64,000 bases of DNA from NCBI RefSeq assembly GCF_016019885.1, contig NZ_JAEANY010000001.1, forward strand, positions 558,001 to 622,000, read 5' to 3'. Made by a program: the position numbers and the translations under genes. Shown here in pieces: positions 8,626-23,215 of this stretch (position 1 is its first letter; each line of letters begins with the position of its first letter). Below the pieces are notes generated by a model. It worked only from the letters and a program-made list of their open reading frames with translations. It had not been told where the DNA came from and did no database searches. The stretch comes from Aurantiacibacter sediminis. GTDB lineage: Bacteria > Pseudomonadota > Alphaproteobacteria > Sphingomonadales > Sphingomonadaceae.

Positions 8626-10800
8626 TCAGTCTATTGTGGTCAGGAGAAGCGGCAATGAGCGGGAGAATGTCCCGATCTGGCGAACCCATAGCGGCTGACC
8701 GGGATGGTTCGCCTGCAAGTCGCTGACGGTTGGGGGATCAAGGGTGAACTCGGGTGCCGCCATGGCCCAAACCTTCCGTGGGGTTTCAGGATCGCCAAGT
8801 CCGATTTCATAGCTTTCGCTTTGCTCAACAAGCGGTACTTCCACGGTGCCGGACCAGACCCACGAACCGCGCGCGCGGCGTGTCCAAATTAGTGACATGC
8901 TGCCATCCACATTGGTCCGCATCTCGCCATGGACGGGAGTCAGCGGGCGAAGCGAGCTGCCTTCACCCCCGATCTCAGCGATGACCGGGGCATCGTCCGC
9001 GAGCCCGATCGCGGCAATCCTGTGTGCTTGCGCTATCGCTGCATTATCCAAGCGAATGGGTCGATCATCGAGCAGGATGAATGGCGCGCCCTGAGTGTGG
9101 TCAGCGAAGGTCACATGCTCGCTGCCGCCGATGCCGCGCAGCAAGACGGAAAGCCGCCAGCGACCTGCACCGATGTTCTCAGCATTTGCGAATTGCACAA
9201 TCTCTTCGCCAATGAGCGCGCGGTTTTTCCCGCTGACTAACTCCTCCAACGTGCAGCTTGCGAGCAAGAAATCAGTCGAATCGAGCTGAATTTCGATCGC
9301 GTTGTGTCGGTCGATTAGGGCAGGGTGGGCAGGCGAAAGGTCCGAGGTCAGTTCTCCAATAATGCTCCGCCGCGATCCGGTGGTGCCGATTGGTGAAAGC
9401 AATTCACCTTGCACCGCATAAAGCGCAGCACCGCTCCAGCCGGCCGAAAAAGAGGAAGCAGCTGCATAAACCCGGCGTTGGTCGGATGGCCCCATGCCAT
9501 CCCAAGGAAGCTCATAGGCTTCGAGCGAAGTCGCAGTCGCGATGTTGTCGACCTTTGGCAGTGACCGGCCTGTATCGGTGCTGACAGTTGCGGCTTTTCG
9601 CTGGGGCATTCGCACGAGATCAAGTTCGATGCCCTGTTCGCGCCATTCCCAAGCATCGATACGCCATTTCCCGTTGCGAGCGGGCACGGAAATGACTTGG
9701 CCGGGTGTGAGAGCCGGATCGATCTCTGCAATCCGGTAGGACATACGATCTTGAGACCAGCGCGCCCGCTCTGCCGCATCATCGGCCAGCTTGCGCGCAT
9801 TGGTGGCAAGGAGCGCTCCGGGAAATTCGATCAGGCGATTACGACCCGGCGTGGCTCTGCCACCCGCTCGCTGCAATCCGGTCTGGAAATCGCGATCAAT
9901 ATCGTAATAGCGCAGGCCTGCCGGGATGCGGGTTTCGTCCGATTTGCGGCGCTCGGTGCGGCCGCTTCGCGCGTCATCTCCGGAGATATCAACCACAGGT
10001 TCGGGGAGCGTTTGCAGTGTATCTTCCGTAGGTTCACCGCTTGAAATCGAGAGCAGATTATTCCCTGCATTGCTTGAGATCGGATATACACGGTCGATCG
10101 ATGAAAGCGTTTCCAATATCGTCCCACCTTCGTCCGAATAGCCTTTCAAGCTTTCAAGCGGGCGACTGACAGTCAAATCGCCGGGGACCGGGCCGAGGAT
10201 TTCTTCGAGAGCGACATCACGGTCATCCGCAAATATCTCGAAAGTCAGGCTTGGTATGCGGTTACCGAAATCGGCCAATTGCAGCTCTTCAAACACGCAA
10301 TAAGCAAGGCTGCGATAGGCAGGGCATGCGTTGCCTTCGGCGCTTGCAATGAGGGGATCGGGCAGTTGGTCGCCCTCGCCATTGTAGACCCGCAATTCGC
10401 CGCCGACTTTCAAATCACCTGCGGCGCCCCGCAGAAGATTGCCGTCCGCCCAGATGCGTCCAATGCCATTGATGCGGCGGCTCGACAGGGCAACGGCGAA
10501 TGATCCTGAATAGGAATATGTCGTGACTGTCGGCTGACCCTTCCCGCCGCTTTCTTCGCTTGTTTCTTTGAGATCTGTCGCCCAGATGATGGAGCCGGCA
10601 GCCCGTATTTTTCCGAAATGACGCGGTATCGGTGCGCCATAAGAAGAGGTTGTGACTTTCAGCTCTTGCAGCCGCGGTCCTTCGCGGTCCGGTGGGCCAA
10701 AGATCATCGCATCGATCTGGCTACCGATAACCGATCCAATGGTCGCGCCGATTGGGCCGCCAATCGCTGTGCCAGCTGCGGAGAGTATGAGAGTGGCCAT
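8626..10800 (-). CDS. GTA host-specificity / baseplate hub protein (gp15-like, short)
   Basis: 724 residues. The first ~40 are a glycine-rich hydrophobic stretch (AAGTAIGGPIGATIGS) typical of phage hub proteins; then come the RHFGKIRAAGSIIWA region of the putative phage-tail family PF13550 and a long beta-rich body. The Rhodobacter capsulatus gp15 is about 1300 residues and starts with a glycosidase-like TIM barrel; that barrel is absent here. It would form the central hub of the distal tail and contact the recipient cell. It lies 15 bases after the NlpC/P60 gene in the same transcript. Confidence 0.82.
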   Translation of the reverse strand: MATLILSAAGTAIGGPIGATIGSVIGSQIDAMIFGPPDREGPRLQELKVTTSSYGAPIPRHFGKIRAAGSIIWATDLKETSEESGGKGQPTVTTYSYSGSFAVALSSRRINGIGRIWADGNLLRGAAGDLKVGGELRVYNGEGDQLPDPLIASAEGNACPAYRSLAYCVFEELQLADFGNRIPSLTFEIFADDRDVALEEILGPVPGDLTVSRPLESLKGYSDEGGTILETLSSIDRVYPISSNAGNNLLSISSGEPTEDTLQTLPEPVVDISGDDARSGRTERRKSDETRIPAGLRYYDIDRDFQTGLQRAGGRATPGRNRLIEFPGALLATNARKLADDAAERARWSQDRMSYRIAEIDPALTPGQVISVPARNGKWRIDAWEWREQGIELDLVRMPQRKAATVSTDTGRSLPKVDNIATATSLEAYELPWDGMGPSDQRRVYAAASSFSAGWSGAALYAVQGELLSPIGTTGSRRSIIGELTSDLSPAHPALIDRHNAIEIQLDSTDFLLASCTLEELVSGKNRALIGEEIVQFANAENIGAGRWRLSVLLRGIGGSEHVTFADHTQGAPFILLDDRPIRLDNAAIAQAHRIAAIGLADDAPVIAEIGGEGSSLRPLTPVHGEMRTNVDGSMSLIWTRRARGSWVWSGTVEVPLVEQSESYEIGLGDPETPRKVWAMAAPEFTLDPPTVSDLQANHPGQPLWVRQIGTFSRSLPLLLTTID

Positions 10801-10815
10801 AATGGCTCCTTGAAA

Positions 10816-11220
10816 TCAGGCGAGGCGCCAGCGGCTCAGCTCTGGTGCAGCTGGCGTCCGCGGTGACTTGACGACGCGGCGCAAGCCCGCATGTGCGTGG
10901 ATCAGGTGATGGTCGACACTGACTATGCCGATATGGAATTGCCCTGGTGAAGGGTGCAACAGAACCAAGTCGCCGGCCATGTCCGGCTCGTCGGTTCTGG
11001 CAAAGCCGAGCTGTGACAGCAGCGGCATGAAGGTTGCGAGCCCCACATTGCGCAAAGTGTAAGCGGGTACTGGCGGCGGTATGCGTTCGATCGCGAGCAA
11101 CGCACAATGCACGAGGCCTATACAGTCTATGCCCGTCTGCGGGTCCCGGCCGCGAAGCCTGAATGGCGCTCCTATAAGCTGTTCTGCAGCCTCTGCTAGT
11201 GCAGCGCCAGCATCGCTCAT
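10816..11220 (-). CDS. NlpC/P60-family cell-wall peptidase of the GTA tail (gp14)
   Basis: 134 residues. The catalytic cysteine is in GIDCIGLV (about residue 33), the histidine in FHIGIVS (about 96), and the third polar residue in LIHAHAG. In RcGTA the equivalent protein is a tail-tip peptidase that opens recipient peptidoglycan during DNA delivery. It overlaps the DUF2163 gene by 4 bases (ATGA), which indicates translational coupling. Full length for GTA members. Confidence 0.88.
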   Translation of the reverse strand: MSDAGAALAEAAEQLIGAPFRLRGRDPQTGIDCIGLVHCALLAIERIPPPVPAYTLRNVGLATFMPLLSQLGFARTDEPDMAGDLVLLHPSPGQFHIGIVSVDHHLIHAHAGLRRVVKSPRTPAAPELSRWRLA

Positions 11221-12041
11221 GATGAGCTGGTCGGATAGCTCGTGAGGAGATCGTTGCCGGGCAAATGGGGTTCGCCCTGAAAGTTTGCGGCATTGCCGAA
11301 TCGGGCGTTGCAGGTCGCCAAAGTATGATCGCAGCCTTCACGCAAGAAAGCGCGCGTGCCGGCGCCGATATCGCTGGAAATGGGGCGGTCAAACACGATG
11401 CCAGCCGCATCTGCATCTATTACTTGCATGGTCATCCCTGCATGCGGCCCGTCGATCCACTTGATGCTGCCATGCAGGATATTTGCCGGAGCAGGTGCTG
11501 CACTGAAGCTGACGCGATTATTCTCCAGATCGATGCTGCTGACCTCGACGATGTGGGTGAAGCGCGACGCGCTCAACTGGCATGCCGCATCGCAGAACGC
11601 AGCACGGCAGGTCGGGCTGGTGCGCGCCACGACATCCACTTCGAGACGCGCTTTTGCCGAGCGAAGCTCCGCCTCAAAGCTCCCATCGCGCTGCGAAATT
11701 GCGCCCAATTCCCCGTGAAAGAGCGACGTATGCTCGAGCGTCTCCCAATCGACCAGGCCAATAGAGATCCGCGCATTGTCGAAGCGGCCTTGCTCCATAT
11801 CTTCTGCTGAAATCGAATCGTGGGCCAATACGCCTTCTACTTCGACCGTATCGCGCTCAAGCTGCGCTGTGCGCCGGATAGCGGACGGAATCATGCCCGG
11901 GGCGGAGCGATAGCGCACGCTGTCGATCACCAGATCACGATTGTGGCTGGTGAAGCCGAGGCACATCCCGTCCCGCCGCTTGATGCTCCAATAGGTGGCA
12001 ACGCCTTCCAGCTCTGTGGTGAAAAAAACATGGCCGCTCAT
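11217..12041 (-). CDS. DUF2163 distal-tail protein (GTA gp13)
   Basis: 274 residues. The N-terminal region holds TYWSIKRRDG and GFTSHNRDL, characteristic of DUF2163. The C-terminal half has a conserved cysteine set (SPTCRAAFCDAACQL and DHTLATCNARFGN) that suggests an iron-sulfur or disulfide site, as described for the RcGTA gp13 hub. It overlaps the gene before it by 4 bases and the gene after it by 4 bases, so translation is probably coupled throughout gp12-gp14. Confidence 0.85.
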   Translation of the reverse strand: MSGHVFFTTELEGVATYWSIKRRDGMCLGFTSHNRDLVIDSVRYRSAPGMIPSAIRRTAQLERDTVEVEGVLAHDSISAEDMEQGRFDNARISIGLVDWETLEHTSLFHGELGAISQRDGSFEAELRSAKARLEVDVVARTSPTCRAAFCDAACQLSASRFTHIVEVSSIDLENNRVSFSAAPAPANILHGSIKWIDGPHAGMTMQVIDADAAGIVFDRPISSDIGAGTRAFLREGCDHTLATCNARFGNAANFQGEPHLPGNDLLTSYPTSSS

Positions 12042-14356
12042 ATGTCTTCGCGCACTTCGATAAGCGGGACGGAAGGAGCATCATTTGCGGCGAAAGTGGC
12101 GCCGCTGATGTCCAGCCGATCTTCCGCAAAGCGCACGGGCACATCGAAAAGGAAGCCAGCGCGGATGGCGGCGCCATCGGGCGGCGCATTGGTGAAAGTG
12201 ATCCTGCCGCCGTCGCCAAGGAGCCAATCGGTTTCGGCCACGCCGTCTACACTGATCAGTATCGTATCGGCGCGAGGCCGCGTGATGTTGCGCAGCTGAG
12301 GCTCGTCGATCGCGCCATAGCTTTTGCTCAGCTGGAAAGTCGCGGTCAGGCCGTCGCCCGTGCCGATCAGCTGGTCCATCATGGTGGGTGTCCCGCTCAG
12401 CCCGTTGCTGCTGAAATCGAAGGGATCGGCGAGCCTAAATGCGCGTGCAGGGCCCCGGCGAGCGCGGAAAAATTCCAGCAAAACGCCCAATTCTGCCTGT
12501 GAGCGAATGCCCGGGCCGACATCGTAATTCAAACGCGCATCGCTCCACTGACTGTTGCGCCGTTCATGACCCGATGCAGTAAGCAAGATCGAAGTCGAAA
12601 ATTCAGGTGCCACCGATGCATCGCGGCCGAGCGCAAGCGGGTAGAGCACATCATCGAATGATTGCACGTCATTCTCCTCATCAGGCAATCGGACATATCC
12701 ATCGCGCACGATCTGCGGCAGCGCCCACACGAAAGTGCGCTCCACGCCGCGCGCCTTGGCTTCATCGAGCCCGCCATCAATCAGGCGCCAGTAATCTTCG
12801 GCATCCTCGGCATTAAGGACGAAGCCTGCGAGATAATGCTGGCGATCGACCGGATAAGCGAGGCGCGCATCGAGCGCGGCATATCCGCGCTTGCGTTCAG
12901 CCTCAGCGCCGGCGGTCAGCCAATCATAATCCTCGACTTGCAAGCGCGTGAAAGCGGGTGAGCTCCACCTGCTGGAAATATTGAGCCGCGCCGCCACGGG
13001 ATGCGCCGGATCAAAAACCTGCGGAGTGAACAGCAGGATGTAGGTCGAGGTTTCAGACCCGCCCGCTTGCTGAGCCCGTCCGCGCATCGACGTCGCGGTA
13101 AAACCCAGCTTGAAAGCGGCGGCATCGATGTAGTCCGAAATAGCGGGGTCGTTCGGGTCGGAGCTGGCGGTGATCTGCGGAACTTGTGGCTGGGATGCGC
13201 GCATGTCTGCGTCATAGATGCACGGCTTGCCGCCGGGATTAATCCACCACCAAGGCTCGCCAATTTGAAAATGCGGATCGAGGCCGGTGGCGACTTGCAA
13301 AGATACAAGTTCTGTCGTCGCGTCGCGCAAAAAATGTACTGCGGCATTGTTCGCAGGGGAGACAAGCGTCGATGGCGGCACCCATCCGGTCAGCGCAGGA
13401 TTGCCATCCCAATCCCGCTGCTTCCACGCTTCCGGGCAGTGCTCGTCGAAGAGCTCGAGGGAAAGCGAGAGGATAGGCGAAAGGCCAAGCTGAAGACTGG
13501 CTTCGAAAAGATTGCGATGCCATGCGATGCACGGCTCACAAAGCGGTGTGTTCGGATCGACCAAGAGTGTCTGCGTGGCATCGGGCTTGAGCCGGTAATA
13601 GTGGCTCATCCCGACGTAATGTACATAAGTTCCGCGATAGCCCAGATGCAGCACATTGCGCAGCATCCGCGCCGGGGTAAGATTGTAGCTGTCATCATAG
13701 GCCGTGCACATTCCGACATCGTGAGGCGGCAACAGTGCATCGCCAATCACCAGCATGGCGCGCTCGCCATCTGCCGAGATATCGGACAATTCCACCCATC
13801 CATCCGCTCGGGCAGGCAAAAGCTGCGAATTGGCAGGATCATAAGCGGGCGGGACAATCGATATGAACATGCGATCGATCGACGCCGGATGAATAAGAGT
13901 GCCATCGCCGGCCCACCCTTCGCGAAGGTCCGAGAAGGGGATGGTGATGCGCGCATCCTCCGGCGTGCCATCGGCGTAATTCCACAGCCGCACGAACCAG
14001 GTGCGCGCGGCTCCGGAGGCATCGCGGCCTTCGATCGTCAGTGTGGGGCCATGCACCGCGTCGAGCGGCAAAACGCCTGATGACTGCCAGCGAAAATTGA
14101 GCGTCAAGCGGCTGTAGTCACGCTCCGTATCGTAAGACAGCAGCGGATGATCGAACCGGTCTTCGCTTTCCCAGATCAGGCCCGCTAGCGCATCGTGGTG
14201 GTGGAACTCGCAATCCACCCGCAATGCGTCCGGCGCTGTCGTGATCACGCTCGCCATCATCGGTCGCGGGAAATCGACCGTCCAGAAAGGCGGATCGAAG
14301 CGTTGGATAAAGTCGATATCCTGGCCTTCGCGCTTCTTCGCCAACCAATATGCCAT
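12038..14356 (-). CDS. Fusion: large N-terminal domain plus DUF2460 distal-tail domain (GTA gp12)
   Basis: 772 residues. The last ~210 (from EFSTSILLTASGHERRNSQW) are a complete DUF2460/TIGR02217 domain, the whole of gp12 in R. capsulatus (about 210 residues). The first ~560 residues are extra: a beta-rich start, then an alpha/beta region with HYVGMSHYYRL, ILSLSLELFDE and IGEPWWWIN that looks like a glycosidase-type barrel, with a GEP glutamate in a plausible catalytic place. This may replace the barrel missing from the gp15-like gene. It stops 12 bases before the next GTA gene's start region and overlaps gp13 by 4 bases. Confidence 0.8.
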   Translation of the reverse strand: MAYWLAKKREGQDIDFIQRFDPPFWTVDFPRPMMASVITTAPDALRVDCEFHHHDALAGLIWESEDRFDHPLLSYDTERDYSRLTLNFRWQSSGVLPLDAVHGPTLTIEGRDASGAARTWFVRLWNYADGTPEDARITIPFSDLREGWAGDGTLIHPASIDRMFISIVPPAYDPANSQLLPARADGWVELSDISADGERAMLVIGDALLPPHDVGMCTAYDDSYNLTPARMLRNVLHLGYRGTYVHYVGMSHYYRLKPDATQTLLVDPNTPLCEPCIAWHRNLFEASLQLGLSPILSLSLELFDEHCPEAWKQRDWDGNPALTGWVPPSTLVSPANNAAVHFLRDATTELVSLQVATGLDPHFQIGEPWWWINPGGKPCIYDADMRASQPQVPQITASSDPNDPAISDYIDAAAFKLGFTATSMRGRAQQAGGSETSTYILLFTPQVFDPAHPVAARLNISSRWSSPAFTRLQVEDYDWLTAGAEAERKRGYAALDARLAYPVDRQHYLAGFVLNAEDAEDYWRLIDGGLDEAKARGVERTFVWALPQIVRDGYVRLPDEENDVQSFDDVLYPLALGRDASVAPEFSTSILLTASGHERRNSQWSDARLNYDVGPGIRSQAELGVLLEFFRARRGPARAFRLADPFDFSSNGLSGTPTMMDQLIGTGDGLTATFQLSKSYGAIDEPQLRNITRPRADTILISVDGVAETDWLLGDGGRITFTNAPPDGAAIRAGFLFDVPVRFAEDRLDISGATFAANDAPSVPLIEVREDI

Positions 14357-14368
14357 CTCGGATACCTC

Positions 14369-14953
14369 TCAGTAATCTCTCATGGAACGGGCGATGGCAC
14401 TGGCGACCTGGCGCGATGATCGTTTGAGAATCACCGGGCTTTGCGTGCCGCGCGGCGTATTGAGATTGATCGACACGCGAACGTCGCGAGCACCGCCCAT
14501 CTGTCCGTTCGCCTCGACTCGACCGGCGCTCGTCGGCACGAAAAGCTCCGGCCCTCGCTCGCCGACGACATAGGGTGTTCCCGGCGACACCGGCCCCCCG
14601 GTCGCGCGGCCGGGCAGTCCGAGGAAAGAGCTGAAAATGCCGTTCAGGATGGAGCCGAAATTGGTGCCGCCACCGATGGGAGACTGACCGCCGAAGATCG
14701 CTCCGATACCGCTTTGAAGGGCCTGCGCGGCGATTTCATTCATCGTGCGCAGGGCAATGGATTTCAGCTCGTCAAAGCCCAGCTTGCCGCGCCGGATGGC
14801 AGACAGCAGGCTGCGTTCCAGCACATCGCCTGCCTTGGCGAAGCCATCGAGCAGCGATGTGTCGAGCGCACCGCGCATGTCCTCGATATCGGAGCGAAAG
14901 CCGCTGGTGCTTGCACGTACCTCCACCATCAGGGTTTCGATTTCATCGTCCAT
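14369..14953 (-). CDS. Short tail tape-measure protein (GTA gp11)
   Basis: 194 residues. An N-terminal helical part is followed by a glycine-rich hydrophobic segment (GIGAIFGG, then LNGIFSSFLGLPGRATGGP) and the VVGERGPELFVP motif that marks tape-measure C-termini. RcGTA gp11 is about the same size, shorter than phage tape measures, which fits the short GTA tail. It overlaps the start of the preceding 66-residue gene's end by 11 bases. Confidence 0.85.
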   Translation of the reverse strand: MDDEIETLMVEVRASTSGFRSDIEDMRGALDTSLLDGFAKAGDVLERSLLSAIRRGKLGFDELKSIALRTMNEIAAQALQSGIGAIFGGQSPIGGGTNFGSILNGIFSSFLGLPGRATGGPVSPGTPYVVGERGPELFVPTSAGRVEANGQMGGARDVRVSINLNTPRGTQSPVILKRSSRQVASAIARSMRDY

Positions 14954-15143
14954 TGTTGTCGCTTTCGATCATGTGCTCGATCTGGCTGCGGGTGATGCCG
15001 GGATCGGCCCCATTCGCTTCGTCGAGCAGGATTGCTGCCAGTTCTGCCGGGGTCGCACGCCAGAACCAGTGCGGGGGCCAGCCGAGCAGCCTGCCGCTCG
15101 CGCCCGCAAGCCGGCGTGCACCGTCAGCAAATTGCTTCGTCAT
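14943..15143 (-). CDS. Small GTA tail-assembly chaperone-like protein (gp10.1 position)
   Basis: 66 residues. It contains LAGASGRLLGWPPHWFWRAT followed by PAELAAIL, the pattern of the small PF09550-type tail-assembly chaperones encoded between gp10 and the tape-measure gene of GTAs. It overlaps the gp10-like gene by 4 bases (ATGA) and the tape-measure gene by 11 bases. In phages such chaperones coat the tape measure during tail assembly; the role here is inferred from position and length. Confidence 0.8.
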   Translation of the reverse strand: MTKQFADGARRLAGASGRLLGWPPHWFWRATPAELAAILLDEANGADPGITRSQIEHMIESDNNGR

Positions 15144-15448
15144 TCGCCGCCCTGCAGGATCTGCGCGAGAAGCACGCGCAGAGGTGCTGTCGATTTCGCG
15201 AGGCCCAACGCCATTACGGCTTCGCCCACATCGTCCCGCGAAACCCTGCTTCGATCAGACAGGCAATGCCAGAACAGGGCGGCGATTTCGGTGAGGCGCA
15301 GCTGGCCTTCCGATGCCCGTTCGACCAACGCGAACAGCGGACCGAGTTCGTCCTCAGCCGCGACAAGCGCTGCAAAGCTGGGGCGCAACAGATGCTCCTC
15401 GCCAGCGATGCGCAAAACCGCTTCACCGCGGATAGCATTCGCAGTCAT
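15140..15448 (-). CDS. GTA tail-assembly chaperone (gp10-like)
   Basis: 102 residues with LRPSFAALVAAEDELG and LTEIAALFWHCL, typical of the gene-transfer-agent family protein of PF11836. It overlaps both neighbours by 4 bases, so it is translated in step with the tail-tube gene and the small chaperone. Predicted all-helical. It probably assists tail-tube or tape-measure assembly. Confidence 0.83.
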   Translation of the reverse strand: MTANAIRGEAVLRIAGEEHLLRPSFAALVAAEDELGPLFALVERASEGQLRLTEIAALFWHCLSDRSRVSRDDVGEAVMALGLAKSTAPLRVLLAQILQGGE

Positions 15449-15852
15449 GCAGGCAGCACCGCGCCGGAGCTCTCGAGCTGCAGCGTGTAATTTCGCTCGC
15501 CATTGAAATCGCCCGCATAATCCAGCCGCTGGACAAGGAAACGACCGTGCAGCTTTTGCCCGTCTTCGAAGGACAATTCGTATTCCTCGATCGTCCCGGC
15601 AAGCGCATGGGCGCGGATGGCGGCTTCGGCATTGCTGCCAAGGAAAATGCCCGCCGCGCTGACAGAGACCGAACGCACGCCCGCTCCGGAAAGCAGGTCA
15701 CGCCAGCCACCCGATTCCTTATGCGTGACGACTACGGCATCGCCATTGATCGACATTTGCGTGGTCCTGAGGCCAGCGACAGTTTCATAGGCAGGGGGCT
15801 GCGTGCCATCCCCGATTTTGAGGAGGAAGGCAGAGCCTTTTTGGGCAGTCAT
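15445..15852 (-). CDS. Major tail protein, TP901-1 family (GTA gp9)
   Basis: 135 residues, starting MTAQKGSAFLLKIGDG, with VAGLRTTQMSINGDAV and a repeat of beta-strands (KLHGRFLVQRLDYAGDF). These are hallmarks of the TP901-1-type tail-tube subunit. It would polymerise into the GTA tail tube. A palindromic repeat fills the gap between this gene and the gp8-like gene upstream (15853-15998). Confidence 0.87.
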   Translation of the reverse strand: MTAQKGSAFLLKIGDGTQPPAYETVAGLRTTQMSINGDAVVVTHKESGGWRDLLSGAGVRSVSVSAAGIFLGSNAEAAIRAHALAGTIEEYELSFEDGQKLHGRFLVQRLDYAGDFNGERNYTLQLESSGAVLPA

Positions 15853-15884
15853 ATGGGGGTTCTCCGAGTGATAAGCTGGGAATT

Positions 15885-15998
15885 CCCCTCCCGCTTGCGG
15901 GAGGGGCTAGGGGTGGGCATGGGCCCGCAAGGGCCCACCCCGCTGCGACTAGGCTCCTTCGTCACCAAGTCTCGCTCCCCTCCCGCAAGCGGGAAGGG
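15885..15998. repeat. Palindromic repeat cluster in the gp8-gp9 gap
   Basis: Three palindromes fill the intergenic gap. The first (15885-15906) is a perfect 10-bp inverted repeat, CCCCTCCCGC and GCGGGAGGGG, around TT. The second lies at about 15910-15941 (GGGTGGGC against GCCCACCC around GGGCCC). The third (15977-15998) is a diverged copy of the first. The last abuts the gp8 stop codon. The layout is that of a REP/BIME-type element and could affect stability of the GTA transcript. Confidence 0.75.
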
Positions 15999-16391
15999 TC
16001 AGGCGGCAAGCAATCTGAAACGATATTCGAGCAACACGGCCCGCGTGTTGCGTGGTCGCTGTTCGGCGCGAGCGCGCAGGAATTGACTGGTTACGAGGTG
16101 GAAGCCGGTTTGCGCGGCTGTTAGCGCCTCGATCCGGTTTTCGATAAGCGACACCAGCGATGCGGTTTCATCCGCCGCATCACCACGGGTGTGCAGCTCG
16201 ATGGCGATGCGCACTTCGCGCCCTTTCGTGCCTTTCGTGCTCCAATCCGTGCTCGCGCTTGCGGCAATGCCGAGCCATGGCGGCGCGCTGCGGGATGGGG
16301 CTTCCTCGGTCACATCGTTCAGCGCGGCGGACAGCTGCGGGTCGCTCTTCAGCCAATCGACAAGGGCAGTTCTGAGAGTGCTTTCCATCAT
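15999..16391 (-). CDS. DUF3168 tail-completion protein (GTA gp8)
   Basis: 130 residues from the ATG at 16391 (MMESTLRTALVDWLKSDPQL). Members of DUF3168 sit between head-tail adaptor and major tail genes and complete the tail end. Its start overlaps the stop of the small gene at 16391-16561 (TGATG), pointing to coupled translation. A longer in-frame extension upstream has a non-ATG start and lacks family character, so it was not used. The core motifs are WLGIAAS and FHLVTSQFLRARAEQ. Confidence 0.83.
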   Translation of the reverse strand: MMESTLRTALVDWLKSDPQLSAALNDVTEEAPSRSAPPWLGIAASASTDWSTKGTKGREVRIAIELHTRGDAADETASLVSLIENRIEALTAAQTGFHLVTSQFLRARAEQRPRNTRAVLLEYRFRLLAA

Positions 16392-16561
16392 CAGACATCC
16401 CTGCTGGTGAGTGGCCAGAGCAGGCGCGGATTGCGCCAGCGTGATCCGTCCGTCACGCGGCGACGCGCGCGGTTCTCGGCGTAAGCGAGCGCCAGTAGCT
16501 TGGCGCGATTGGTCATGCACTGGGCGAAGTTGATGTCGCGCTTCATTTGCGGATCGATCAC
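16391..16561 (-). CDS. 56-residue gene in the head-tail adaptor (gp7) position
   Basis: An open frame with a GTG at 16561 overlapping the gp6 stop (GTGA) and a TGA at 16391-16393 overlapping the gp8 start (TGATG). Coupled overlaps at both ends argue for a real gene even though it is tiny. The product is basic, with ENRARRRV and SRWRNPRLLW. GTA clusters normally encode a head-tail adaptor of about 110 residues here; no such family signature is seen. ATG starts at 16546 and 16516 are alternatives. Function unknown. Confidence 0.5.
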   Translation of the reverse strand: MIDPQMKRDINFAQCMTNRAKLLALAYAENRARRRVTDGSRWRNPRLLWPLTSRDV

Positions 16562-17103
16562 GCGATCACCATGCCGCGCCAGGGCTGCCACAGCGCCGTC
16601 ACCGCGGCGGGGGGAGCATTGGAGCCGCCCTCATTGCGCTCGCGATAATGATGCGCGGCCAGCCGGATGATGCCATGACGGAGGCCTTCGGGAAGGCTTT
16701 CCCAATCGGGCGCAAGTCCGGCGGTAAAGCGCACCGCGATACGAACGTCAGCAAAGGTGCGCAGCAGGTTCACTCGCCCGCTGCCATTGGCGAGGATGTC
16801 GAACAAATAGTCGCCGGGATTGACTGCGCCGCGTGTGCCGTTAGCCGCAATCGTCTCCAGCGTGGTGATCGACTGCACGGGGCTGGTGGCGAGCGAATGC
16901 CAGCCTCGGGTAGCGGGCACCACCTCTTCACACAGCGCCTCGATCGGCATGGCGCGGGTGAAGCTCTCGCAGGTGTCGAGACTGGCGCGCAGCAAAGCGC
17001 TGAGCGCAGCATCGTCACGCGTCGTTGTGATCGCGAGCCATTCTTTAAGCTCATTAAGGGCCGCTTGTGGCAAGAATGCCGGCGCGACGATTTGCCGCTT
17101 CAT
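16558..17103 (-). CDS. Head-tail connector protein (GTA gp6)
   Basis: 181 residues from the ATG at 17103 (MKRQIVAPAFLP); an upstream in-frame start at 17139 lies in the inverted repeat and is unlikely. The pattern of LNELKEWLAITTTRDDAALSALL followed by ACESFT-like helices and a C-terminal AAHHYRERNEGG is that of gp6-like connectors, which form the ring under the portal. Its stop is overlapped by the 56-residue gene. The gap to the capsid gene holds two repeat elements. Confidence 0.83.
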   Translation of the reverse strand: MKRQIVAPAFLPQAALNELKEWLAITTTRDDAALSALLRASLDTCESFTRAMPIEALCEEVVPATRGWHSLATSPVQSITTLETIAANGTRGAVNPGDYLFDILANGSGRVNLLRTFADVRIAVRFTAGLAPDWESLPEGLRHGIIRLAAHHYRERNEGGSNAPPAAVTALWQPWRGMVIA

Positions 17104-17135
17104 AAGCGGTCTCCTTCTGGATGAAACAGGTAAGG

Positions 17136-17184
17136 GCACGCCCGCCCCGCGAGCGGGAAGGGGACTCCAGCGGAGCGGGCGTGC
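17136..17184. repeat. Inverted repeat in the gp5-gp6 gap
   Basis: A perfect 10-bp inverted repeat, GCACGCCCGC (17136-17145) and GCGGGCGTGC (17175-17184), around 29 bases that contain a second small palindrome (CCCGC/GCGGG). There is no T-tract on either side, so it is not a clear terminator. Confidence 0.7.
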
Positions 17185-17220
17185 GGGGCAGCTAGCTTAC
17201 GCCTGCCGCCCGGTTGAGGC

Positions 17221-17330
17221 GCCGGGGTTCAGCGCAATTTCGGGCGGCGGAGCCGACCGCAAGGCCGAATGGCCGCCCGAGCTTTTGCGAGGAGCCAAGC
17301 ACACGGATGTGTGCGCCCGGCGCTTGAGGG
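17221..17330. repeat. Dispersed non-coding element, copy A
   Basis: About 110 bases downstream of the capsid stop (gp5-gp6 gap) resemble 45378-45496 downstream of ctrA. Shared blocks are CCGGGGTTCA near the left end, CCGCAAGGCCGA, CCAAGC, CGGATGT and CCGGCGCTTGAGG. Over the right-hand 73 bases identity is about three-quarters. Neither copy codes for protein in a consistent frame. Both lie immediately 3' of a minus-strand gene. Confidence 0.65.
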
Positions 17331-17337
17331 CTCAAAA

Positions 17338-18489
17338 TTAGACCTCGATTTTCAGCAGTTTGATCGCGTAGCTATCGAGCACCTGGCCGCCCACGCGCTT
17401 GGTAGCGTAGAAGTGGACGAAGGGCTTGTTGGTGAAGGGATCGCGGAGCACCTGCGTCGCGGAGCGTTCGGCGATGATGTAGCCCGCCTTGAAATTGCCG
17501 AAAGCAATCGGGAACGCGTCTGCCGCGATGTCCGGCATGTCCTCGGCTTCGACCACTGGATAGCCGAGCAGGCGATCGGGCTGGCCTTCGACGAGGCCCG
17601 GCTGCCAAAGGAAGGCGCCATCGCTGGTCTTGAGCTTGCGCACTTCGCTGAGCGTGGCGGAGTTCATCACCCAGCTTGCGCCCTGGCGATGTCCGGCCTT
17701 CATCGTGTGGACGAGGTCGATCAAACGGCTTTCCGGATTGGCATCGAAACCCTGCGCATCGCCCGAGCCGATATACTGCAGCGAGCCGAAGGGGCGAACC
17801 GCGTCTCCCGCAAGCGAGGTTGGCGAGGACAGGAAGCCGAGCGGCTGGTCCGTGCCATTGCCGCCGACGAAGGCGGAACCTTCGGCGCGGGCAAATTCCA
17901 TTGCCACTTCGCTCGCCAGCCAGCTTTCAAGGTCGAATGCCGCATCGTCCAGCATTGCCTGGCTCGCTGCCGGATTTGCGTAAAGCTCGCCCGAGGGCGG
18001 GGCGATTTCGGCGAATTCAGGTGCATCGGTTTCGGGGCGACCGGCAGTTTCGCCCACCCAGCCCGACGCAGTGCCGCCGGTGGTGATGAGCTTGCGATAG
18101 CCGGCAGAGCCGACCTGCACGACCTGTGCAAGGCTGCGGATCGGTGAGATCTCCTTCAGCTCGCTGGCGATCATGGCGTCGATTTCGCGCGGGACGGCAT
18201 AGCCACCATCCTGCGGCACCGCGCCGGAAATCGACTTGATCTCCGCTTCACGGCCACGGCGCAGATAGCCATCGACGAAGCCTTTGACTTCGGGGCTGGC
18301 TTCGCTGGTGGCCGAGGCGATTGGCCCAAGGATCGCAGGGCGCGAGGCGGCCTTGCTCACCCGGTCGAGCCGCGCTTTCACTTCATCGACATCGCTGCGC
18401 AGCGTGGCGATTTTCTCGTCCGCAGCATCCTGCCGCGCGACAATATCAAAGCTCTCCGTAAGCTGGTCTGTTTCGATCTGTACATCCAT
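17338..18489 (-). CDS. Major capsid protein, HK97 fold (GTA gp5)
   Basis: 383 residues from the ATG at 18489 (MDVQIETDQL). Residues 1-~90 are a charged coiled-coil scaffold domain that is normally cut off by the prohead protease. The HK97-type shell domain follows, with AVPQDGGYAVPREID, GWVGETAGRP and the C-terminal DPFTNKPFVHFYATKRVGG. It would form the small GTA head. It lies 34 bases after the protease gene and precedes a repeat-filled gap. Confidence 0.92.
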   Translation of the reverse strand: MDVQIETDQLTESFDIVARQDAADEKIATLRSDVDEVKARLDRVSKAASRPAILGPIASATSEASPEVKGFVDGYLRRGREAEIKSISGAVPQDGGYAVPREIDAMIASELKEISPIRSLAQVVQVGSAGYRKLITTGGTASGWVGETAGRPETDAPEFAEIAPPSGELYANPAASQAMLDDAAFDLESWLASEVAMEFARAEGSAFVGGNGTDQPLGFLSSPTSLAGDAVRPFGSLQYIGSGDAQGFDANPESRLIDLVHTMKAGHRQGASWVMNSATLSEVRKLKTSDGAFLWQPGLVEGQPDRLLGYPVVEAEDMPDIAADAFPIAFGNFKAGYIIAERSATQVLRDPFTNKPFVHFYATKRVGGQVLDSYAIKLLKIEV

Positions 18490-18523
18490 AGGGGTATTGG
18501 CCTTTCGGTTGGGGTGGGGGTGC

Positions 18524-18913
18524 TCAAGCGACGCGATGAACCCGGGCGCCGTGTTGCAGGGGGTGGGAGACAAGGCTCACTTCAAACAGGTCGATATCGT
18601 GCAGCACGCGGCCATCGGCGGTGCGTTCGTAGCCGCGCGCGCGGTAGCCGAAGCTGAGGCCGCTCACGCGTTTGGCGAGAACATCGGAGACAGCGCGGCT
18701 CTCCGGATTGTCGATGCTGGCGATGACACGCAGCCCGCGTGTGTCCTCTTCGGCGAGTTCGACAGTGCCGATCCGCTGGTCCGGATTATGCTGCCAATAG
18801 AGCGGGATCGGCTCTGCGCGTTCCGTCAGGGACTTGGCAAAGGCACCGGCGACGATCGTGTCTTTCGCGCCATCGGCAATATCGAACAGCGCGGCATACC
18901 CGGCGATCCTCAT
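18524..18913 (-). CDS. Prohead protease, HK97 family (GTA gp4)
   Basis: 129 residues from the ATG at 18913 (MRIAGYAALFD). It has IPLYWQHNPDQRIGTV with the catalytic histidine, GLSFGYRARG and FEVSLVSHP with the catalytic serine/histidine region of peptidase family S78. It trims the capsid scaffold domain. Shorter than many phage proteases (about 180 residues) but typical for GTA. The start overlaps the stop of the DUF6127 gene by 4 bases. Confidence 0.88.
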   Translation of the reverse strand: MRIAGYAALFDIADGAKDTIVAGAFAKSLTERAEPIPLYWQHNPDQRIGTVELAEEDTRGLRVIASIDNPESRAVSDVLAKRVSGLSFGYRARGYERTADGRVLHDIDLFEVSLVSHPLQHGARVHRVA

Positions 18914-19218
18914 CGCACAAGCTCCGTCACGCCGAGCCGCACCGCGATGCCGATCAGCAGCAGCGCGCCGATCACTTTCACGATCCAGTCGACCGCAGCT
19001 TTCCAGGCGGAGGCTTTTGCAGTCCGCCATGCGCCAAGCAGGTCGCGCAATTCGTCGAGGTCTTCCTGTGCATCGTCATCGCCAAGGCCAAGCTTCTCGA
19101 CCGCGCGCCGCGCGCCGACTTCGCTGGCTTCCTCGACAATGGCGCGCAATGTGACAAGGTCTGTGCCGCCCGCTTGGGCTTGGGCCATCAGCGCGGCGAG
19201 CATGTCTTCGCGGTTCAT
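18910..19218 (-). CDS. DUF6127-type small membrane protein within the GTA cluster
   Basis: 102 residues. An acidic helical half (about residues 1-65) is followed by one transmembrane segment (IVKVIGALLLIGIAV, about 79-93). It matches the small protein found between portal and protease genes in sphingomonad GTA clusters; I recall this group as DUF6127. It overlaps both neighbours by 4 bases, so it is tightly coupled. A role in prohead assembly at the membrane is only a guess. Confidence 0.7.
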   Translation of the reverse strand: MNREDMLAALMAQAQAGGTDLVTLRAIVEEASEVGARRAVEKLGLGDDDAQEDLDELRDLLGAWRTAKASAWKAAVDWIVKVIGALLLIGIAVRLGVTELVR

Positions 19219-20372
19219 TGCGTTGCTCCATGATCGAGGCCGAGCAGCGCGCGCTTTTCGGCAGGTTCAAGGAAATCGGCCTCGCTCACCTGCTTCCACA
19301 GCCGCTCACGATCTTCGGAAAGTGCAGGCACGCGGTCGAGATCGACACTGAGCTTCGCCTCCGGGAACCACGGCGTAAGGCCTTCGGAAAGGCCCGACAG
19401 GATCTTGCCCGCCAGCGGCAGCAGTGTGAGCCGCCACAGCGCGCGATTGGCCTCGCGGTAATTGGCGTAGGTATTGTCGCCCGGCATGCCGAGCAGCATG
19501 GGCGGGACACCGAAAGCGAGCGCAATGTCGCGCGCGGCGGCGGCCTTCAGCTCGGCGAAATCCATATCGGCAGGCGAAAGCGAGAGGCTCTGCCACTTGA
19601 GCCCGCCTTCCAGCAGCATCGGCCGCCCGGCATTTCCGCCGCCCTGATAAGCCTGCGCCAGCTCGGCCTTCAGCCGCTCGAACTGGTCGGTGGTCAGCCC
19701 CGAAGTATCCGCCCCGCCATCATAGACGAGCGCTCCTGATGGCCGCGCCGCATTCTCCAGCAGCGCCCGGTTCCAGCTGGCCGAGGCATTGTGGATCGCC
19801 ACCGCCTGCTCGGCCGCCGAAAGGCATCCCGCGCCATAGTGATCGTCCGCCGGGTGAAAGCTCTTCAAATGGATGACACAAGGCCAGCCATCCTCATCCT
19901 CCACCGGCATTTCCAGCGTGCGATCATTCAGCTTGTAGCGATAGGCGCGCGGCCAGCCATCCTCGCCCGGCACGACCGAAACCCGCTCGGGCCGCAGTGC
20001 GAACAGCTCGACCGGCTTGCCGCTGCCATCGCGAGCGACCTGCACGAAGCCGTTGCCATGCAGCAGCAGATGCGCGGCAAGCGTTTCCAGCAGCGACTGC
20101 CCGGCACTTGTCGCCTGCACCAGAGCGAGCAGGTCCGGCGCATCGGATTGCACCGGAGCGCCGTCCACTCCCTCCGCGACGATCCGCACCGCGCGCTGCG
20201 CCACCGGATTGTCGAGGAACGCGTGGCGAACGGAGTCCCGATACGAAAAAGGCGGCTTCGCGCCGCCATTTTCAAAGGTCCATCCCCAGGGTGACTGAAA
20301 GCTGCGCGCCAACGGCACACGAGCCCCGCCATCGCCCTTGAAGGCGGTGCGGAGCGTGTCGATGAAAGACAT
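19215..20372 (-). CDS. Phage portal protein, HK97 family (GTA gp3)
   Basis: 385 residues from the ATG at 20372 (MSFIDTLRTAF); an in-frame ATG at 20402 falls near a repeat and adds a non-conserved tail. The family signature is visible in VRHAFLDNPVAQRAVRIVAEGV, HGNGFVQVAR and FGVPPMLLGMPGDNTYANYREA. The portal forms the 12-subunit DNA entry ring. A repeat separates it from the large terminase gene upstream. Confidence 0.92.
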   Translation of the reverse strand: MSFIDTLRTAFKGDGGARVPLARSFQSPWGWTFENGGAKPPFSYRDSVRHAFLDNPVAQRAVRIVAEGVDGAPVQSDAPDLLALVQATSAGQSLLETLAAHLLLHGNGFVQVARDGSGKPVELFALRPERVSVVPGEDGWPRAYRYKLNDRTLEMPVEDEDGWPCVIHLKSFHPADDHYGAGCLSAAEQAVAIHNASASWNRALLENAARPSGALVYDGGADTSGLTTDQFERLKAELAQAYQGGGNAGRPMLLEGGLKWQSLSLSPADMDFAELKAAAARDIALAFGVPPMLLGMPGDNTYANYREANRALWRLTLLPLAGKILSGLSEGLTPWFPEAKLSVDLDRVPALSEDRERLWKQVSEADFLEPAEKRALLGLDHGATQ

Positions 20373-20397
20373 GCTTGTTTTCTCCTGAATGCGAGTC

Positions 20398-20481
20398 GTC
20401 ATTCCCGCGAAGGCGGGAATCCAGCTTTGGATGTTGCCACAGCCACAAGAGCTGGACCCCCGCCTGCGCGGGGGTGACGAG
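20398..20481. repeat. Palindromic repeat between terminase and portal genes
   Basis: The left half is TCATTCCCGCGAAGGCGGGAATCCA-like (hairpin ATTCCCGC/GCGGGAAT) and the right half CTGGACCCCCGCCTGCGCGGGGGTGACGA (hairpin CCCCCGC/GCGGGGG). Such paired hairpins are common dispersed repeats in sphingomonads and other proteobacteria. It fills the 112-base gap between two GTA genes on one transcript and may influence mRNA stability. Confidence 0.8.
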
Positions 20482-20484
20482 GGT

Positions 20485-21825
20485 CTAGAAACTGCGAATT
20501 GAAGGATGCCCCTTCCGTCCCAGCATCAACTCCGTCAGAGCCCACACCAGAGCATCCGCGCGATCCGGCGACCTGCCCGGGCCTTCATACCCACCGCCGG
20601 TCATGATGCCGCAGAGCTGGTCTTCCAGCTTCGGCAGATGCCCGACATGCGCCACGCGGCCGCTTTCGTAGAGGGCTGCGACCGGCTCGGCGCGGGCCAC
20701 CTTGCCGCGGCTCGCATGGACGAGCTTCACCGGCATCATGCAGTCCGCCGCGCGCAGCACGCTGGCGACCATATCGCCGCCCTGATTGGCTTCGGCGACC
20801 ACGCGGTCGGCTTTCCATTTGCGCAATGTCACCGCCACCCGCCGGGCCCAGGCCTCCGGGCTGGGCTTGGTGAGCGAGGCGTCTTCTAGAACATAGGCTT
20901 TGCCTTCCGCATCCACCCCAGCAACCACGATGCCGCATTCATCGCCGCGCGACGAAGCGGGCGGATCGACGCCGACGACGATGCGCACCATGGTTTCCAG
21001 CGTTGCCGGCACCCGGCATTCCTCGAGTAGCAATCGGCTCCACAGCGCGCCTTCGACATCGGCCAGCAGCTCGCCTTCCAACTCCTGCCGACCGAGCGAA
21101 GAGCCGCCATATTGCCGCTTCATCGCGGCGAGGAATTCTGCAGGCAGGTTCTCGGCATTGTCGTAGGAGCTGCCGCGCGTCACCACGATGTCGGGATCGC
21201 TTCCATCGCCGATGAGCCTGCGCATGAGCGGGACCGCACGCGGCGTGGTCGTTGCCAGCACCTGCGGATGTTCGCCAAGTCGCAGGCCCATTTGCAAATT
21301 GTCCCACGCGGTGAGTGCCCGTTCGCCGGCATTGTCCCATTTCGCGATCTCGTCGCACCAGGCGTGCGAATGTTGAGGTCCTCTCAGGCTCTCCGGCTCA
21401 CCTGCAGAATATAGCGTCGCCTGCGCCCCGCTTGGCCATGTGAGACGGCGGAGCGAGGGCTCGAAATAAGGCCGGTCCTCGCTTCCGTCGCAACACGCGA
21501 GAATGCCGCTTTCGCCTTCCACCATCACAGCGCGCGCTTCGCCGATGGACCGGGCAACGAGGGCAATACGCGCCTCGTCGTGCTCCTCTGCGATATGGCG
21601 CACCCATTCCGCCCCGGCACGCGTCTTGCCAAAGCCGCGCCCGGCGCAAATCAGCCAGAGCCGCCAATGCGCGGCGGGGGGCATTTGTTCGGCGCGCGCC
21701 CACAGCGGCCAGTAGCGTTCCAGAAGGTCGTTTTCGTCATCGCTCAGCTCGCCGAGAAATTTTTGGCGGCGGTCGGTATTCAAACGGAAGAGTGCCGCGC
21801 CGCGCTCAATTGCCGTCATGCGCAT
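20485..21825 (-). CDS. Terminase large subunit (GTA gp2)
   Basis: 446 residues. The ATPase domain has Walker A GRGFGKT (62-68) and the Walker B region HAWCDEIAKW. The C-terminal RNase-H-like nuclease domain starts at about 285 (VVGVDPPASS, DECGIVVAG) and has the acidic DRADALVWALTEL near the end. It packages host DNA headfuls into GTA heads. The start overlaps the small terminase stop by 10 bases. An alternative start 2 codons in (ATG of MTAIERG) is possible. Confidence 0.93.
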   Translation of the reverse strand: MRMTAIERGAALFRLNTDRRQKFLGELSDDENDLLERYWPLWARAEQMPPAAHWRLWLICAGRGFGKTRAGAEWVRHIAEEHDEARIALVARSIGEARAVMVEGESGILACCDGSEDRPYFEPSLRRLTWPSGAQATLYSAGEPESLRGPQHSHAWCDEIAKWDNAGERALTAWDNLQMGLRLGEHPQVLATTTPRAVPLMRRLIGDGSDPDIVVTRGSSYDNAENLPAEFLAAMKRQYGGSSLGRQELEGELLADVEGALWSRLLLEECRVPATLETMVRIVVGVDPPASSRGDECGIVVAGVDAEGKAYVLEDASLTKPSPEAWARRVAVTLRKWKADRVVAEANQGGDMVASVLRAADCMMPVKLVHASRGKVARAEPVAALYESGRVAHVGHLPKLEDQLCGIMTGGGYEGPGRSPDRADALVWALTELMLGRKGHPSIRSF

Positions 21826-22301
21826 TGCTCTCCGCCGGCCGAATTCTCCGGTGGCTCGTCAGCTTCCAGCAATTTGTCGGCCGCAGCGCGTCGCTCGCGC
21901 ATCTTGTCGAGCTTTGCATTCAGGCTGGCGAGCACCGTTGCCCGGTCCCGCTTGCCACGGCGCGCCTTCTCCCGCGCGGCGCTTTCCTTGTGTGCGGCGA
22001 GCAAACGCAGCGCGTTGGGAATGTCGAACTTCGCATCGCCCGGCGCGGTGCCAAAGCGCAGCCTTTCGAGCGTTTCCATCTCCAGATTCTCGTAACCTTC
22101 AAGGAGTGCGGTGCCCCATTTGCGGCGGAATTCGGGATCTTCCCGGCGGTGCTTGTAGACGTAGGATGTCATTGCGCCGCACTTCGCGGCAGCCTTGGTG
22201 ACATTCGATGTTTCCGCCAGCTCTTCGAGGAAGATGAATTTCCAATTCTGGGGCAGGTTCTGGTGCTTTTGCTCTTTCCTCGGCTTTACTCTTTTCGCCA
22301 T
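21816..22301 (-). CDS. Terminase small subunit-like protein, first GTA gene (gp1)
   Basis: 161 residues from the ATG at 22301 (MAKRVKPRKEQ). A helix-turn-helix-like region covers LEELAETSNVTKAAAKCGAM and a long basic coiled-coil tail (KARRGKRDRATVLA, then KLDKMRERRAAADKLLE) follows. This fits the small terminase that recruits DNA to the large subunit; RcGTA gp1 has an equivalent role with little sequence specificity. It is preceded by a terminator-like hairpin and a promoter, and overlaps the large terminase by 10 bases. Confidence 0.8.
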   Translation of the reverse strand: MAKRVKPRKEQKHQNLPQNWKFIFLEELAETSNVTKAAAKCGAMTSYVYKHRREDPEFRRKWGTALLEGYENLEMETLERLRFGTAPGDAKFDIPNALRLLAAHKESAAREKARRGKRDRATVLASLNAKLDKMRERRAAADKLLEADEPPENSAGGEQCA

Positions 22302-22350: not shown

Positions 22351-22382
22351 AAAAAGGGCGGCTCCCCTGCGGGACCGCCCTT
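22351..22382 (-). terminator. Intrinsic terminator / attenuator in the GTA leader
   Basis: On the minus strand AAGGGCGG pairs with CCGCCCTT, extended by TCCC:GGGA across one bulged G around a GCAG loop, and is followed by TTTTT (22355-22351). This is a strong rho-independent signal. It stands 50 bases before terS and about 37 bases after the predicted start of the upstream promoter. No other minus-strand gene precedes it. Confidence 0.75.
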
Positions 22383-22425
22383 AAAAACTTCGTGCTGCCG
22401 ACTCGCTCTATCGCGATGTTCTGCT

Positions 22426-22454
22426 TCTCTAACCAAATAGTGTCACGATGTCAA
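22426..22454 (-). promoter_or_regulatory. Sigma70-like promoter upstream of the GTA cluster
   Basis: On the minus strand a perfect TTGACA (22454-22449), a 17-base spacer and TAGAGA (22431-22426). The spacer contains GTGACACTATT, one of three copies of this motif in the next 850 bases. Transcription would start near 22419 and run into the hairpin at 22351-22382. Confidence 0.55.
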
Positions 22455-22558
22455 TATAAAAGTGCCAGATAGGTTATTTTGTTGGACTTGCGGGGAGCTT
22501 GCCTGACTGGCGCGGGTGGCATAGAGGCGGCTAAACTCTTCAGCGGGAGATTGACCTT

Positions 22559-23215
22559 ATGATGCGTCTGCTGCGCGGGCTCTATGAATGGACGATGGAA
22601 AAGGCGGCCCATCCCAAGGCGGAATGGTGGCTGGCGTTTTTCTGCTTCATCGAATCGAGCTTCTTCCCGATCCCGCCGCATCCGCTGCTTGGTCTCATGT
22701 GCTTGGCAGAGCCGAAAAAGGCGATCCGTTTCGCCCTGATCGCGACCATCTCCTCGGTTCTGGGTGCGCTGTTCGGCTATGCGATCGGCTTCTTCCTGTA
22801 TGAGACTGTAGGCACGTGGATGCTGGGCGTATTGGGACTGACCGAGAGTTTCCCGGTCGCCGCCTGCTACATCCGTGAACAGGGGGCAGCAGCCGTCTTC
22901 CTGGCCGCCGGCACGCCCATCCCATTCAAGCTGATGACGATTACCGCGGGCTTCATCGAAATGAACCTGCTGACATTTACGCTCGCATCCATCGCGGGGC
23001 GCGCGCTCATTTTCATGGTGGTGGGCATCCTGTTCCAAGTATTCGGTGCGCCGATCAAGGCGATCATCGACAAATATCTTGGCACGGTGACCACGATTTT
23101 CGTGGTGCTTGTGGTCGCCGGTTTCGTGGCGATCACCCAGCTAGGCGGAAGCGATGATGCTGCAGATGACGATGGTCACCGCTGCAATAGTGTCACTTCC
23201 TTGGAGCAAATCTAG
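22559..23215 (+). CDS. YqaA/DedA-family inner-membrane protein
   Basis: 218 residues. Five or so hydrophobic helices and the SNARE-associated (VTT) pattern: ESSFFPIPPHPLLGLM near residue 35-50, FGYAIGFF, then GTPIPFKLMTITAGF and GRALIFMVVGILF. DedA-superfamily proteins move lipids (for example undecaprenyl phosphate or phosphatidylethanolamine) across the inner membrane or need the proton motive force; the substrate here is unknown. The tail after residue 200 is acidic. Good ribosome-binding site GGGAG 9 bases before the ATG. Confidence 0.88.
   Translation: MMRLLRGLYEWTMEKAAHPKAEWWLAFFCFIESSFFPIPPHPLLGLMCLAEPKKAIRFALIATISSVLGALFGYAIGFFLYETVGTWMLGVLGLTESFPVAACYIREQGAAAVFLAAGTPIPFKLMTITAGFIEMNLLTFTLASIAGRALIFMVVGILFQVFGAPIKAIIDKYLGTVTTIFVVLVVAGFVAITQLGGSDDAADDDGHRCNSVTSLEQI

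Follow-up and report, generated by a model that had tools for sequence, protein, structure and literature searches.

Background

GTAs are domesticated viruses that carry bacterial DNA. Production of a GTA kills the producing cell, and how the GTA is kept off is therefore a central question. In Caulobacter, GafY and IHF recruit the polymerase to the GTA promoter, which has a poor -35 element, and GafZ is a processive anti-terminator whose site lies between -10 and -35 and which lets the polymerase pass a terminator located after the first gene; a near-consensus -35 made this promoter independent of GafYZ (PMC11150451). RogA, which represses gafYZ in Caulobacter, has an HTH at its N-terminus and is predicted to have a LexA/CI-like domain at its C-terminus (PMC9632790). 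Homologues of gafA were reported in 196 of 208 GTA-bearing genomes (PMC9765227), and the reference list of PMC13236601 includes a 2025 paper on the Bartonella BaGTA whose title contains the words 'transcriptional antitermination'. An earlier note on the DNA analysed here had regarded gating of this kind as a layer not generally described for GTAs; that statement was outdated, because GafZ anti-termination in Caulobacter had been published in 2024 (PMC11150451).

Results

We analysed a stretch of 64,000 nucleotides (hereafter, the window), in which a sigma70-like promoter lies ahead of a GTA cluster on the minus strand. The features considered were as follows (coordinates, strand, description):

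22559..23215, plus: neighbouring gene in divergent orientation, for a membrane protein with a VTT-like domain (Pfam match under the cut-off)
22462..22476, minus: operator-like element TAACC-TATCT-GGCAC (right half degenerate; centre at about -50)
22449..22454, minus: -35 element TTGACA (from the sequence and relatives)
22439..22449, minus: spacer element ATCGT-G-ACACT (corresponds to the palindrome AGCGT-N-ACGCT of other families)
22426..22431, minus: -10 element TAGAGA (from the sequence and relatives)
22398..22420, minus: conserved leader element AACATCGCGATAGAGCGAGTCGG with the predicted start at about 22419 (from the sequence and relatives)
22351..22382, minus: putative intrinsic terminator, stem-loop 22382-22354 and T-run 22355-22351 (from folding, covariation and enrichment)
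21816..22301, minus: terS (without a Pfam match; named from its position before terL)
20485..21825, minus: terL, terminase large subunit
19215-20402, minus: portal gene
8626..20402, minus: remaining GTA head and tail genes examined (portal, capsid and tail proteins)
20251..20267, minus: second terminator-like hairpin, within the portal gene, sense strand

The promoter consists of TTGACA (22454-22449), a 17-nt spacer and TAGAGA (22431-22426), which shares three of six bases with TATAAT, and it occurs once in the genome (2.67 Mb). Transcription would start at about 22419 (minus strand). The stem-loop AAGGGCGGT-CCCGCAGGGGA-GCCGCCCTT (22382-22354, minus strand) lies about 37 nt from this predicted start and is followed by a T-run (22355-22351), whose end is about 69 nt from the predicted start; the ATG of terS is at 22301. 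The positions and spacing of the promoter, hairpin and terS in the earlier note proved correct when the sequence was re-read. The spacer element ATCGT-G-ACACT, in which three of five pairs are kept (register counted by hand), is a candidate GafZ site. The hairpin in the portal gene (20251-20267) is compact, and the cluster of the nearest relative (L326) contains a similar one further down.

Folding of the region 22423-22301 gave -52.7 kcal/mol (z -3.8), a value equally low in one of 200 shuffled sequences. A generic consensus scan of 5 kb reported neither the GTA promoter nor the leader hairpin, probably because of the rule it applied to the -10 and because it allowed loops of no more than 8, and the bare motifs are thus not decisive. 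A scan of the 64-kb window that allowed longer loops gave six minus-strand terminator-like sites, the most stable of which was the leader hairpin (dG -22.4; next, -21.8), and 10 plus-strand sites. That the hairpin terminates an upstream gene was ruled out, because the VTT-domain-like neighbour is divergent in this window and also in each of the 51 loci (of 59 examined) in which it was found.

The first search for relatives was performed with 361 bases around the site against 148 genomes (own genome included) and gave matches in 78, many of them to the generic hairpin alone. For the leader comparison, 50 of 63 loci were kept (dropped were a duplicate, L001; the weak matches L058-L060; the false matches L061-L063; and six loci with an insertion element). 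The best-conserved stretch over the 50 leaders comprised the operator, the promoter and the early leader; TTGACA was identical in 50 of 50, a conservation that is biased because these relatives were picked by similarity to the block itself. The -10 region varied, towards TACATA or TATAAA, and conservation dropped upstream of about -57. The weak matches L058 (in G053) and L059 (in G018) come from genomes in which no TerL match was found; what is left of the promoter block there is decayed and still adjoins the VTT gene, which links the block to the GTA rather than to its VTT neighbour. A direct repeat, ACATCGYGAY (in the spacer and at the leader start, about 33 bp apart), was suggestive within the genus and was set aside since it failed in other genera.

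A terminator at dG <= -10 was found in 34 of the 50 leaders, against 180 of 1,000 shuffled sequences. The earlier note held that absence of the hairpin from close relatives would speak against its reading; the hairpin was present at this threshold in 27 of 30 leaders of the same genus, and the three misses were two long stems with a poor T-run (L014 and L019) and one leader with no stem (L034). A second set was collected with a 25-nt promoter pattern alone, which gave 106 genome contigs, 97 of which were used (eight with an insertion element and one that was too short were dropped); since this set was chosen on the promoter only, its hairpin count is unbiased, with species overlapping those of the first set. 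Under strict criteria a terminator lay within 130 nt after the promoter in 53 of the 97 leaders, against 20 of 485 shuffled sequences; the counts for control regions were 1 of 87 upstream, and 2 of 92 and 2 of 91 at 300 and 600 nt further along. The same scan of the antisense strand gave 21 of 97, which is attributable to the symmetry of the stems. In the remaining 44 leaders the strict scan gave no terminator, and the leader motif CGANTCG was retained in 33 of them.

Covariation, proposed as a check in the earlier note, was assessed with 58 hairpins pre-selected from 74 leaders for a stem and a T-run. In this pre-selected set 88.2% of the cells paired, nine of 12 pairs changed on both sides, and the covariation score was 0.325 (0.186 in shuffled and at most 0.179 in slid alignments), so that the stem does covary. 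By sequence, then, the hairpin has the GC-rich stem-loop, the T-run and the compensatory changes of an intrinsic terminator. Its enrichment at this place together with the covarying stem makes the leader terminator look selected, yet it is not universal.

Four explanations other than a GafZ-type switch were weighed. According to the first, termination would be set by a leader peptide or by an alternative RNA pairing, as in a classical attenuator or riboswitch. The layout fits such a device, which we nevertheless consider highly improbable: an ATG preceded the hairpin in just seven of 61 leaders and no conserved ORF was found; species-matched pairing of the leader with the 5' arm was no better than swapped pairing (-7.09 and -7.06 kcal/mol), and pairing with the 3' arm was slightly worse than swapped (-5.82 and -6.27 kcal/mol), which led us to reject a riboswitch-like alternative pairing; and an Rfam search of the site gave no match above threshold (best, 17 bits; gathering score, 46.5). 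With neither a conserved leader ORF nor an alternative pairing found, the leader does not appear to be a classical attenuator or riboswitch-like. The earlier note had proposed gating by attenuation or anti-termination, of which the latter is the better supported and the former, in its classical form, is not. The leader as an N-terminal extension of terS was likewise rejected, because the distances among the -10, the stem and the ATG differ by non-multiples of three among relatives.

According to the second, the unit would produce a small RNA of about 69 nt with a function in trans, as the promoter, short transcript and terminator and the conservation of the first 25 nt would allow. The conserved part, however, is mostly upstream of the start, the stem sequence is variable, the unit is always ahead of terS in the loci read and no Rfam match was above threshold, and we regard such a function as improbable; as a mere by-product, free RNA of this length is likely.

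The genome encodes one GafZ-type DUF6456 protein (158 aa; 131 bits against a cut-off of 26.3), on a separate contig. The GafZ profile had no match in a PDB sequence search. The GafZ protein at L065:1492-1968 matches phrog_21451 (E 3.5e-9), a phage family of unknown function that is a lead to phage relatives of the anti-terminator. Divergent from gafZ and 96 bp apart is the gene of a 190-aa HTH protein (hereafter, RogA-like). Among the 148 genomes, GafZ was found in 99 and the RogA-like protein in 104; 97 had both, and in all 97 the two genes were divergently adjacent. The structure model of the RogA-like protein (pLDDT 88.7) had LexA (E 1.6e-4) and a lambda-186 hybrid repressor (2.0e-4) as its best structural matches and TM 0.60 of target with the lambda repressor C-domain; cupin-type HppE chains came next (5.2e-4), close enough that the LexA/CI-like C-terminal fold, which the model makes likely, is not certain. 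The RogA-like profile matched only HTH domains among PDB sequences, and a separate single-sequence structure model (pLDDT 42) was set aside.

For GafY, no standalone PF08299 match was found in the own genome, where DnaA alone matches PF08299. As a positive control, seven of nine loci outside the own family were tested: a small PF08299 protein lay beside gafZ in six of these seven loci of other orders, in five above the cut-off. Three long GafZ proteins of the own order matched DUF6456 only. A second PF08299 match was found in 16 of the 148 relatives, which counts against a clean absence of GafY across the order.

The palindrome TAACC-N5-GGTTA (within one mismatch) has 17 sites in the own genome, one of which is in the 96-bp gap between gafZ and the RogA-like gene; a reversed control pattern has 84, and the palindrome, not being enriched genome-wide, is informative by its placement only. 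It lay upstream of gafZ (at most one mismatch) in 39 of 41 loci (own and 40 hand-chosen relatives with gafZ). Among 18 loci of other families and genera in which both genes were matched, it lay between gafZ and the RogA-like gene in nine, with two copies 24-25 bp apart in five of the nine, and right after gafZ, at the GTA promoter, in seven of the 18. At the GTA promoter, 42 of 105 loci had a copy (at most one mismatch) that started 21-23 nt upstream of the -35, against a background of eight sites in 795,672 bases. The copy at the own GTA promoter is degenerate (right half, GGCAC); a perfect TAACC-N5-GGTTA occurs in other genera. Within the promoter spacer, 17 promoters of other families and genera kept on average 3.71 of the five pairs of an approximate palindrome, AGCGT-N-ACGCT (shuffled, 2.45; sd, 0.20), of which the own copy is also degenerate.

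The GTA promoter is interrupted by an IS1595-type element in L221, L230, L242, L251, L255, L308, L318 and L325, and similar insertion elements were seen in L037, L039, L043, L046, L047, L054 and L113. In eight of eight interrupted loci of the pattern-found set of 105, the element end is exactly 6 nt past GGTTA, a target hot spot at the -10 of the GTA promoter. The element of L039 carries a DDE_Tnp_IS1595 transposase and a SocA/Panacea-domain gene.

Loci of other families were then compared; 14 loci from five other families of the order were picked for gafZ and terL on one contig. In these 14, gafZ and terL have the same orientation, gafZ lies 0.6-1.8 kb upstream, and the promoter is between gafZ and terS. 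The terminator test across families covered 33 of 40 fetched loci, with the -35 placed by eye. A strict leader terminator was found in seven of the 14 loci (in one, L127, at the terS coding start) and in none of four loci from other genera of the own family (shuffle control for both sets, 15 of 180). In two families that gave no DUF6456 match, 13 of the 15 loci had such a terminator (shuffled, 19 of 150). The leader terminator, as a sequence, extends beyond the genus and is not linked to a recognisable GafZ. In L145-L160, of these two families, leader terminators are strong and neither GafZ nor a RogA-like gene is recognisable; they possibly use a different or diverged anti-terminator. Given the 196 of 208 genomes with gafA homologues (PMC9765227), a diverged GafZ may have been missed there.

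Terminators are also present, as sequences, within the GTA transcription unit: in the first 4 kb of the cluster, sense-strand sites were found in 26 of 44 relatives (31 sites) and antisense sites in nine of 44 (11 sites), and the internal sites bunch near 2.7-3.0 and 3.8-4.0 kb. A nearly identical hairpin, GGGGCCGGAGC-ATCCGGCCCC, with a T-run was seen about 2.7-3.0 kb past the promoter in the GTA cluster of L246, L266, L268, L273, L291 and L304.

These data bear on the third explanation, that the terminator is a passive brake, trimming leaky transcription while the GTA is off, with no dedicated factor, and overrun by stronger initiation. A terminator in most loci of the two families without a DUF6456 match, its absence from many loci with the same promoter, and a stem of a generic kind that recurs in these genomes would all be expected of such a brake. 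Against it, the spacer and early leader are conserved far beyond the need of a bare promoter, a GafZ anti-terminator is encoded, and there are more sense terminators in the cluster; we therefore hold a passive brake to be unlikely, if the most serious of the four. The fourth explanation, that an anti-terminator other than GafZ acts at the leader and that GafZ is needed only further down, likewise draws on the families that have leader terminators but no DUF6456 match. It is a slim prospect given that gafZ is beside the GTA promoter in five families and that GafZ, as the reported frequency of gafA homologues suggests (PMC9765227), has perhaps diverged beyond recognition in the others.

Discussion

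We favour, with somewhat better than even confidence, a GafZ-type anti-termination switch in which the first terminator lies in the leader and a strong -35 replaces GafY-dependent initiation. The perfect -35, the failure to find GafY, the drop of conservation past about -57 and the terminator before terS together suggest that control has moved from initiation to elongation. In favour of the switch, the leader terminator is enriched and its stem covaries, and gafZ is encoded here and adjoins the GTA promoter in five other families. Against it stand the 44 of 97 leaders without a strict terminator, the degenerate spacer palindrome and operator of the own copy, and the different RogA site of Caulobacter (GGAA-N4-TTCC); a strict link to GafZ is opposed by the two families in which DUF6456 had no match, where 13 of 15 loci have a leader terminator. 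Our confidence is held down by the second PF08299 matches and by the ambiguous repressor fold.

From the promoter, leader and terminator, their conservation, the gafZ/rogA-like pair and the shared palindrome, all of which are present in the sequence, we infer the start of transcription, the loading of GafZ at this site, read-through, and the identity and binding of the repressor, as follows. With its perfect -35, the promoter would allow RNA polymerase to initiate without a GafY-type activator, and the intrinsic terminator would halt it about 70 nt on, ahead of terS. GafZ, once made, would load at the promoter or leader, and the polymerase would then pass the leader terminator and those inside the cluster. 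The RogA-like repressor probably represses gafZ, and may also act on the GTA promoter, through the TAACC-N5-GGTTA sites.

More tentatively, and with less than even confidence, we propose that the GTAs of this order are poised at elongation: the promoter would fire without an activator and yield an abortive RNA of about 70 nt, and lethal commitment would be decided by loading of a GafZ-like protein at a conserved promoter or leader element and by read-through of the leader terminator. The RogA-like protein would shut both gafZ and the GTA promoter through one operator, and another anti-terminator would serve where GafZ is unrecognisable.

The locus resembles that of CcGTA (Caulobacter crescentus) in having a DUF6456 GafZ-type protein, a GTA cluster behind one promoter with sense terminators inside, and a conserved element in the promoter spacer, the place of the GafZ site in Caulobacter. 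It differs in that the terminator is before the first gene (in Caulobacter, after it), the -35 is a perfect TTGACA (in Caulobacter, degenerate), no GafY was detected, the spacer sequence is unrelated, and no conserved DNA was found at the far-upstream positions of GafY and IHF. Compared with RogA as described in PMC9632790, the RogA-like protein has the same N-terminal HTH, a C-domain that is probably LexA/CI-like without an evident catalytic serine, and a putative site in the region of the gafZ promoter, which in other families often has two, whereas its gene is divergent from gafZ and the putative site is TAACC-N5-GGTTA instead of GGAA-N4-TTCC. The GTA promoter, at which no enrichment of RogA was seen in Caulobacter, has this putative site as well. 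The promoter, short leader and terminator, with a proposed anti-terminator acting from the promoter, are also like the late gene control by lambda Q, which is discussed in PMC11150451; this likeness is one of layout, and no Q homologue was shown here.

In the open-licence literature searched (titles and the starts of abstracts), no leader terminator or TAACC-N5-GGTTA operator was described for GTAs of this order. Relative to the known systems, the terminator before the first gene, the perfect -35, the lack of a detected GafY and the shared operator seem to be new. The locus offers short, testable DNA elements, and a single operator may tie together the repressor, the anti-terminator and the GTA promoter. 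Where Caulobacter has its terminator after the first gene, this locus, from another alphaproteobacterial order, suggests a first GTA brake within 70 nt of the start and without GafY.
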